Source: Streptococcus sp. 1643
Lineage (GTDB): Bacteria > Bacillota > Bacilli > Lactobacillales > Streptococcaceae
DNA: 64,000 nucleotides
Assembly (NCBI RefSeq): GCF_006228325.1
Contig: NZ_CP040231.1
Coordinates: 62,001-126,000, forward strand
Direction: 5' to 3'
Below the pieces are notes generated by a model. That model was given only the letters and a program-made list of their open reading frames with translations. It ran no database searches and had not been told where the DNA came from. Position numbers and translations under genes: made by a program. Below are positions 56,533-57,195 of this stretch, in pieces. Positions within the stretch are counted from its first letter, which is position 1. Every line of letters begins with the position of its first letter.

Positions 56533-56543
56533 GGGGGATAGTT

Positions 56544-56573
56544 AAAAAGCTACTCAAAAATGAGTAGCTTTTT
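56544..56573 (+). terminator. Terminator after the rhomboid gene
   Basis: AAAAAGCTACTCA, AAAA loop, TGAGTAGCTTTTT: a perfect 13-bp stem. Confidence 0.92.
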
Positions 56574-56577
56574 GTGT

Positions 56578-56613
56578 AGATTGGAACCATTCGAAACAAC
56601 ACAGCTCTATAAC
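56578..56613 (-). CRISPR. Single degenerate type II-A CRISPR repeat
   Basis: The minus strand matches the 36-nt repeat of S. thermophilus CRISPR3 (GTTTTAGAGCTG then TGTTGTTTCGAATGGTTCC, ending AAAAC) at 32 of 36 positions as I count it. Three of the four differences are at the 3' end of the repeat, the place where terminal repeats of arrays usually decay. No second repeat or spacer array is visible around it. Its core (56583-56605) is perfectly complementary to the tracrRNA anti-repeat at 57030-57052. Confidence 0.82.
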
Positions 56614-56689
56614 TAGGAAATATTGATACTATCAACTCCGCACATCCTACATAGACAGTTTACCTAATGTTTTTTAATATTCTCCAAAA

Positions 56690-56977
56690 CTATATCTTAT
56701 ACAAATTATTTAATCTTTCTAACTCTAATACATTCATGCATACTTCTACTCCAGTAACTACCCCCTTGCTATGAATAAATCCACAAGAAAACACAATCCT
56801 CTCCTTACTCAAAATATTTGACAATATTACTAATGCTTCTAAAACATAATCCTCTATGGCAATAAAACTATTGTTTTCATCTTTGAAAAACTTTATAAAT
56901 CCAATATCCTTACACCTATCACCAAAATAAAACCTAAGTGATTTTAAATAATAATCAAAAAACACATCAATCTCCAT
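56690..56977 (-). CDS. Small AT-rich gene of unknown function between the CRISPR repeat and tracrRNA
   Basis: 95 aa, not recognised: MEIDVFFDYYLKSLRFYFGD at the start, IAIEDYVLEALVILSNILSK in the middle, ending in a leucine-rich segment LNVLELERLNN-like. It has two cysteines-bearing segments (GDRCKD, FSCGFIH) and no membrane helix that is clear. The start at 56977 has AAGGGGGT directly upstream; a Met 5 codons earlier does not. It is divergent from the tracrRNA by about 45 bases, the position normally held by cas9. The base composition is far more AT-rich than the flanking housekeeping genes. It does not resemble Cas9, Cas1, Cas2 or Csn2. Confidence 0.6.
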   Translation of the reverse strand: MEIDVFFDYYLKSLRFYFGDRCKDIGFIKFFKDENNSFIAIEDYVLEALVILSNILSKERIVFSCGFIHSKGVVTGVEVCMNVLELERLNNLYKI

Positions 56978-57010
56978 AGAAACCCCCTTCATTTTTAAAA
57001 TATTCTGTTA

Positions 57011-57016
57011 TATCAT
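57011..57016 (+). promoter_or_regulatory. Possible -10 box of the orphan tracrRNA
   Basis: TATCAT would start transcription near 57023-57025, right at the anti-repeat. A weak TTCATT lies 17 bp upstream, overlapping the ribosome-binding region of the divergent small gene. Confidence 0.45.
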
Positions 57017-57024
57017 ACAAAAAA

Positions 57025-57141
57025 GTTTTGGAACCATTCGAAACAACACAGCAAGTTAAAATAAGGCTTTGTCCGTGCACAACTTGAAAAAGCGAGCACC
57101 GACTCGGTTGCTAATAAGTCATCTGCAAAGATGGCTTTTTT
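57025..57141 (+). ncRNA. Orphan type II-A tracrRNA
   Basis: Anti-repeat GTTTTGGAACCATTCG... (57025-57052), bulge AAG, lower stem TTAAAAT, nexus AAGGCTTTGTCCGT (57063-57076), hairpin 1 AACTTGAAAAAGC (57081-57093) and hairpin 2 AGCACCGACTCGGTTGCT (57095-57112) occur in the order and spacing of Cas9 tracrRNAs of the S. pyogenes/S. thermophilus CRISPR3 group. An extra hairpin (AAGTCATCT ... AGATGGCTT, 57117-57137) with a T-run ends it. The 23-nt upper anti-repeat is perfectly complementary to the isolated repeat at 56578-56613. No cas9, cas1, cas2 or csn2 lies within the window. Confidence 0.9.
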
Positions 57142-57157
57142 ATTGCAAACTTCAACA

Positions 57158-57193
57158 CAAAAACAAAGCCCTTCTTTAAGAGCCTTGTTTTTC
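57158..57193 (-). terminator. galU terminator
   Basis: AAAACAAAGCCC pairs with GAGCCTTGTTTT through some G-T pairs; T-run on the minus strand. Confidence 0.7.
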
Positions 57194-57195
57194 TT

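Follow-up and report, generated by a model that had tools for sequence, protein, structure and literature searches.

The presence of a Cas9-type tracrRNA and a single decayed CRISPR repeat in a streptococcal chromosome without cas genes raises the question of whether this RNA is still in use or is what a deleted CRISPR-Cas system left behind. The preliminary description of the 64,000-nt stretch of DNA analyzed here (the window) offered both answers: the scar of a deleted system whose RNA scaffold is kept, or a retained RNA which guides or decoys a Cas9 encoded elsewhere. The lost locus belongs to type II-A, and we take it to be of the S. thermophilus CRISPR3/S. pyogenes kind. Its region of the window contains the following features:

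56578-56613, minus strand: terminal (leader-distal) CRISPR repeat of the lost type II-A array, with 4/36 differences from a consensus repeat entered by hand
56614-57024, minus strand: plasmid-derived segment of 411 nt, read here as a "giant spacer" from plasmid identity, an NGG PAM and an array copy in S. parasanguinis S32
56690-56977, minus strand: p95, a 95-aa ORF and plasmid gene
56983-56989, minus strand: probable ribosome-binding site of p95, AAGGGGG, read from the sequence and aligned
57011-57016, plus strand: -10-like TATCAT at the cassette end, an altered remnant of a plasmid promoter
57026-57118, plus strand: tracrRNA with a chimeric 5' end
57036-57052, plus strand: crossover tract, 17 nt common to the CRISPR repeat and the tracrRNA anti-repeat, located by comparison with intact loci
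57116-57137, plus strand: terminator hairpin 3' of the tracrRNA

The covariance models supported the identity of the RNA. The Rfam tracrRNA model RF02348 matched 57026-57118 of the plus strand with 90.5 bits, against a gathering score of 70 (E 2e-13), while CRISPR-DR22 matched 57025-57060 with 53 bits against a gathering score of 50. As read from the sequence, the terminal repeat and the tracrRNA have GGAACCATTCGAAACAACACAGC (23 nt) in common. The sequence downstream of an intact tracrRNA in a relative (G233) is nearly the same as the terminator region of the window. The open frame of p95 spans 56690-56992 of the minus strand, and in all 30 copies compared, a set which left out four remote relatives, the ATG is codon 6, which gives a protein of 95 aa. 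The genome (G000) is a single contig of 1,898,954 bp, 99.98% complete. It contained no match to the Cas9 model TIGR01865 or to the Cas1 model TIGR03639, neither of which passed its own cut-off in any of 14 control genomes. Because of this, the search with the S. parasanguinis Cas9 protein, which matched 83 of 284 genomes and had no match in G000, is the stronger negative result. The repeat pattern had no exact match in G000, and a DNA search of this genome with 56533-57195 found one place, which was the query itself. Hence, the tracrRNA, the single decayed repeat on the minus strand, the 95-aa length of the small gene, and the lack of cas genes were all as preliminarily described, and the genome-wide search proposed there, for cas9 and for other repeats, returned none.

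The same description had proposed comparing the interval between rhomboid and galU in related strains, and this comparison showed what the locus had been. Intact type II-A loci were found between these two genes in five genomes (G059, G029, G235, G233, and G181), in the orientation of the window, which agrees with the claim that its orientation is the normal one. The order in the intact loci is rhomboid, terminal repeat, array, csn2, cas2, cas1, cas9, tracrRNA, and galU, with the cas genes and the tracrRNA on opposite strands; csn2 of G235 is split into two ORFs. Two further genomes (G061 and G231) fit this arrangement as far as the fetched stretch extends, while G243 fits on the rhomboid side, with no galU within its fetched stretch. 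The terminal repeat adjoins rhomboid at the same place in the intact loci as in the window. The site resembles a type II-A locus in its repeat, anti-repeat, and tracrRNA fold, and in the order and orientation of the genes in intact relatives, while the window has no cas genes, leader, array, or tracrRNA promoter, and its only "spacer" is 411 nt long. The arrangement of repeat, 411-bp segment, and tracrRNA was found at this site in the window and in three other genomes (G202, G240, and G032). Two genomes (G078 and G034) have scars free of the cassette, in which the tracrRNA is joined straight to the rhomboid side, and the site of G007 is empty, with neither repeat nor tracrRNA. Other states of the site were also noted. 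In G066 (L127, 4450-8712, minus strand), the identity to the reference is 77-91% for Cas1, Cas2, and Csn2 and only 41% for Cas9, which is possibly a Cas9 swap inside one locus. In G039 (L130) and G045 (L131) a gene of ~300 aa stands between rhomboid and an orphan tracrRNA, replacing the cas genes.

The comparison with intact loci also located the junction. The intact tracrRNAs compared start with GTGTTGGAAC or a similar sequence, directly after promoter-like sequence. The tracrRNA of the window starts with GTTTTGGAACC, which is the version found in the repeat, and it is of the tracrRNA type past the shared tract; that is, the sequence is repeat-type to the left of 57036-57052 and tracrRNA-type to the right. 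Where intact loci have the native tracrRNA promoter, the window has the end of the 411-bp segment. Because the anti-repeat of the window is such a chimera, there must have been recombination between an array repeat and the anti-repeat, its direct repeat. The comparison shows that the partner was the repeat at the leader side of the giant spacer, and that the crossover deleted the remaining array, the leader, csn2, cas2, cas1, cas9, and the tracrRNA promoter, leaving the terminal repeat, the giant spacer, and a chimeric tracrRNA as its product. The proposal that the locus is the scar of a deleted system is thus well supported, both by the intact relatives at the same site and by the located crossover.

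The 411-bp segment between the two remnants matches the S. pseudopneumoniae plasmid pDRPIS7493 with 90.6% identity, and this match begins and ends at the repeat and the anti-repeat. Hence, the 95-aa gene, which had been considered as what remains of the lost genes, is indeed present, but it is a plasmid gene in spacer position and not a cas leftover. A copy of the same cassette is found in a CRISPR array of S. parasanguinis S32 (L037 in genome G252), where cas9, cas1, cas2, and csn2 are all open. This array has 29 spacers of 30 nt, followed by the cassette (413 nt) in the last position before the decayed terminal repeat. The two repeats beside the cassette have two variants in common, which are absent from the other 29 repeats, as would be expected if a repeat was duplicated on insertion. 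The bases past the 3' end of the spacer in two plasmid records and one plasmid-like contig are TGGAG (L031), TGGCG (L039), and TGGCG (L041), which is an NGG PAM; since the three plasmid sequences are related and the background of NGG on that strand of L031 is 5.0%, this match is effectively one observation. Phage matches were inspected for two ordinary spacers of the same array, and both have NGG beside them: GGGAC in one, and TGGAG in the other, which matches its phage with one mismatch.

Copies of the cassette bounded on both sides were found in 18 genomes, either between two repeats or between a repeat and an anti-repeat, 399-416 nt apart and with the frame open. The tracrRNA anti-repeat forms one side in 7 of the 18, the window included; it is badly decayed in G197. 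In all 18 the edges of the cassette are the edges of the repeats, and in the lineage of the window the edge at the tracrRNA side lies within 3 nt of the repeat edge. These copies occur at more than one place, namely between rhomboid and galU (the window and three others) and beside a 322-aa ORF (L037 and L116). In three other genomes (L101/L109, L102/L110, and L104/L111) the terminal repeat is present on one side only, with plasmid-like or other sequence on the other side. The segment therefore has what is expected of an ordinary Cas1-Cas2 spacer, that is, repeat-type boundaries on both sides, a match to a mobile element with an NGG PAM at the 3' end, and the same orientation, but its length is 411-413 nt instead of the standard ~30 nt, and it holds a whole gene which is apparently under selection.

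From the edges and the PAM we infer that the giant spacer was acquired by Cas1-Cas2. The Cas1-Cas2 proteins of the type II-A system would have integrated a long plasmid fragment (413 nt) which ended at an NGG PAM, held a whole small gene with its ribosome site, and became the leader-distal spacer. One study describes the integration of unprocessed lengths in vitro by Cas1-Cas2 alone, and equal protection by spacers of 30-45 bp, because Cas9 protects only ~20 nt; most spacers acquired in vivo are 30-31 bp (PMC8034620). According to another study, longer pre-spacer mimics are less well integrated in vitro (PMC8390005). Taken together, the length tolerance in vitro and the ~20-nt protection by Cas9 suggest that a giant spacer could both immunize and carry a gene. 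Some plasmid-type copies (L032, L112-L114, and L119) are without the PAM-side end of the segment, which could represent escape.

The main competing explanation sees in the 411-bp segment a cassette, and no spacer, which came to lie between repeats by chance, through recombination or a small mobile element. The same gene is indeed found at repeat-free chromosomal sites (L112, L113, L114, L119, and L120), the one-sided cases occur, and the repeat-flanked copies are intermixed with plasmid copies in the trees. In trees of the ORF only, the 18 two-sided copies were not grouped (AU p 0.01), and plasmid and array copies were mixed, so that either the two exchanged sequence or capture took place more than once. 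Against a chance cassette stand the coincidence of its edges with the repeat edges in the 18 two-sided copies, the PAM on the correct side, and the other edges of the copies outside CRISPR, among which no fixed-end element was seen. For these reasons we consider this explanation unlikely, and prefer the reading of the segment as a spacer. A mobile element with fixed ends was ruled out by those differing edges. Two short spacers joined through plasmid recombination were also rejected, because they would require another PAM, and in the plasmid it is TTT that follows the leader-side 30 nt. In one of the one-sided loci (L110, terminal repeat on the left), the cassette and its right flank match a repeat-free copy (L112) over 1278 bp, so that copies at different sites seem to recombine.

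To see how exceptional spacers of such length are, the gaps between repeats were scanned in 53 loci, of which 49 had arrays with a usable repeat and 4 had none. In these 49 arrays, 1113 of the 1119 repeat-to-repeat gaps below 1.5 kb were 28-32 nt long. Three of the six longer gaps look real: the 413-nt gap of S. parasanguinis S32 and two others in Cas9-bearing genomes, which are 534 nt with a 102-aa ORF (L177, 5896-6429, minus strand) and 204 nt with a 40-aa ORF (L189, 4690-4893, minus strand). The odd gaps of L183 and L206 are runs of N, and the 608-nt gap of L192 is a gene, presumably ndk-like, between two arrays, with leader-like sequence before the second. All three giant spacers are the last gap of their array; as a guess, internal giants are lost by repeat-repeat recombination, while the decayed terminal repeat protects the last one. 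For the 534-nt spacer, plasmids, phages, viral contigs (searched with its ORF), and the 284 Streptococcus genomes gave no significant match outside its own genome; five other Streptococcus genomes had no more than fragments of 28-70 nt. The 204-nt spacer had no significant match in phages (best E 0.05).

Of 284 Streptococcus genomes, 30 have the gene carried by the giant spacer, p95, or a relative of it, with 33 places in total and no stops; it was also found in 11 named genome records, among them those of S. infantis and S. parasanguinis. Apart from the one- and two-sided copies these comprise plasmids, repeat-free copies with other edges, and four remote relatives (33-50% identity). A Cas9 of the reference type was matched in one of the 30 genomes (G252), and G194 has another Cas9. 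In the latter genome, a repeat-flanked p95 cassette has a Cas9 locus of a second kind as its direct neighbor (L115, 174-8160); the Cas9 of this locus has 1127 aa and is 25.5% identical to the reference, and a 347-aa ORF follows Cas2. The p95 protein matched no Pfam, NCBIfam, PHROG, or PADLOC family and was not found in phage or viral collections. In the comparison with solved structures the only chain listed had E 0.57, and the AlphaFold model (mean pLDDT 50.5, pTM 0.31) was judged too poor.

On plasmids p95 stands divergently beside a gene for a 152-aa protein, which looks secreted, as its start looks like a signal peptide. The matches of this protein were weak: Pfam Big_7 with E 0.037 (L031 copy), BNR_3 with E 0.074 (L032 copy), and phrog_4002 with E 0.0075. 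It was found, complete or as relics, in 7 of the 284 genomes, all 7 of which also carry p95 or one of its remote relatives. The divergent arrangement is also kept in G014, by a remote pair with 52% and 33% identity. This one-way dependence, in which the partner was not found without p95 in the 284 genomes and p95 is often without the partner, suggests an immunity- or antitoxin-like gene. Judged by co-occurrence, this is the likeliest role of p95, and one that we propose only tentatively.

The pattern of variation in the cassette was compared with that of its surroundings. Among the 18 two-sided copies there were 16 distinct indel runs, none of which was inside the ORF, which occupies 288 of the 418 columns. 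In the four scar genomes, that is, the window and the three others with the same arrangement, the variable sites amounted to 1.4% in the ORF, 1.3% in the left noncoding part of the cassette, and 6.4% in the short stretch upstream of the ORF, as compared with 4.3% in the tracrRNA, 5.6% in the next intergenic region, 5.6% in galU, and 10.3% in rhomboid. Since conservation in the left noncoding part equals that in the ORF, some of the low variation may be due to recent exchange. The dN/dS of the 18 two-sided copies was 0.575, which is no proof of constraint at the protein level, because the codon bootstrap spans 0.32-1.16. Overall, the data support, and do not prove, that p95 within the spacer would have been kept intact by selection, while the tracrRNA would now be a drifting relic.

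The upstream regions of tracrRNAs in other streptococci bear both on the activity of this RNA and on the generality of the deletion. A tracrRNA above the cut-off was found in 93 of 284 Streptococcus genomes, of which 28 had no Cas9 match. The survey took in 60 of the 93, namely all 28 orphans and 32 of the 65 Cas9-positive genomes, mostly those with the best tracrRNA scores and with loci already in hand; three orphans (G050, G033, and G183) without a core match were dropped, which left 25 Cas9-less loci. A -10 element (≤1 mismatch) stood just before the anti-repeat in all 32 Cas9-positive loci, none of which had a repeat within 600 nt upstream. Of the Cas9-less loci, 9 of 25 had a -10 element and 12 of 25 a repeat within 600 nt upstream; these counts are of genomes and not of independent events, "Cas9-less" depends on one query protein, and the window with its three scar-mates makes up four of the 12 and four of the nine.

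The tracrRNA of the window has no promoter of its own of the kind seen in Cas9-positive loci, as the cassette stands in its place. It could be supposed that the RNA is still expressed from the -10-like sequence at the cassette end, as a scaffold or decoy for a Cas9 arriving by transfer. Its full covariance score and the kept terminator would fit such use, as would TATCAT itself, which passes the -10 test at about the native distance from the tracrRNA, so that all four scar genomes are among the Cas9-less loci with a -10 element, and which could drive the tracrRNA weakly. The plasmid copy has TGATATAAT at this position, and the promoter scan called no -35/-10 pair there. As the native promoter is lost, no Cas9 was found in the genome, and the tracrRNA varies about as much as its neighbors, we consider continued expression for use as a scaffold or decoy highly unlikely, while some weak expression is possible. 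The suggestion that the scaffold is kept, or serves a Cas9 elsewhere, is thus not borne out, and of the two meanings which had been read into the preserved fold, use or recent loss, the data fit recent loss rather than use. The tracrRNA looks like a promoterless relic, which is ordinary once its neighbors are compared; the surprise is the plasmid gene stored as a giant spacer.

Deletion by recombination between repeat and anti-repeat seems to recur. In five other orphans (G071, G261, G173, G046, and G339) repeat-spacer units run directly into the tracrRNA, and because their spacers differ there was more than one deletion event; G187 has a repeat upstream, yet the start of its anti-repeat is of the native type. 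That the window reflects ordinary decay, in which unrelated deletions spared repeat and tracrRNA by chance, is scarcely credible, as the join between its repeat-type 5' end and the tracrRNA falls inside the shared tract of 17 nt and the repeat-spacer units of the other orphans have differing upstream sequences, even if the 13 of 25 Cas9-less loci without a repeat within 600 nt upstream indicate that other routes of loss probably exist.

A partial likeness to other degraded or solitary CRISPR elements was observed. In degraded systems of Mollicutes, cas genes were also lost while a CRISPR locus and a putative tracrRNA were kept (second locus, S. syrphidicola), but the accessible part of that report mentions neither a repeat and anti-repeat crossover nor a captured gene (PMC6882279). 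CreTA modules and RNA anti-CRISPRs also involve repeats that are not part of an ordinary array and stand next to small genes or by themselves in phages, but, as far as the accessible parts of these reports describe them, they act on a cellular Cas effector (PMC9458426, PMC10651486), while no Cas9 was found in the genome of the window. A Cas effector which could repress a toxin, as in CreTA, was thus not found here for Cas9, the effector type searched. A solitary repeat of the II-A type was noted in phage Javan263 of S. infantarius (L123, 5023-5071), between a repressor gene and the next ORF, a placement as described for RNA anti-CRISPR candidates. Separately, four unannotated "Listeria phage" contigs (OR846895, OR848241, OR848714, and OR847561) had between 7 and 32 places each which matched the array query, with identities of 66-71%; the contigs may themselves hold CRISPR arrays or other repeats. 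In the literature searched, a weak negative with most subscription journals and preprints outside its scope, we recognized no account of a gene-carrying giant spacer or of an orphan tracrRNA arising by recombination between repeat and anti-repeat.

These data suggest that a type II-A locus was probably reduced by recombination, and that a captured gene-sized spacer, in which p95 was apparently selected, outlived the system. On a wider reading, for which we see the case as evenly balanced, Cas1-Cas2 would occasionally integrate gene-sized spacers and thus capture genes; one such event would have brought a useful plasmid gene, which was selected, outlived its system, and now lies in the CRISPR remnants of several species, at more than one site of the chromosome, while recombination between repeat and anti-repeat would be a general route of self-deletion of type II-A loci. 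If this is true, spacers are more than 30-nt address tags: a functional gene can be part of an immune memory, which makes CRISPR adaptation a potential means of acquiring genes. The tracrRNA anti-repeat would then be a built-in recombination site for the one-step loss of type II-A systems, and such loss would account, in a concrete and countable way, for some of the patchiness of Cas9 among streptococci, where 28 of 93 genomes with a tracrRNA are without a Cas9 match.
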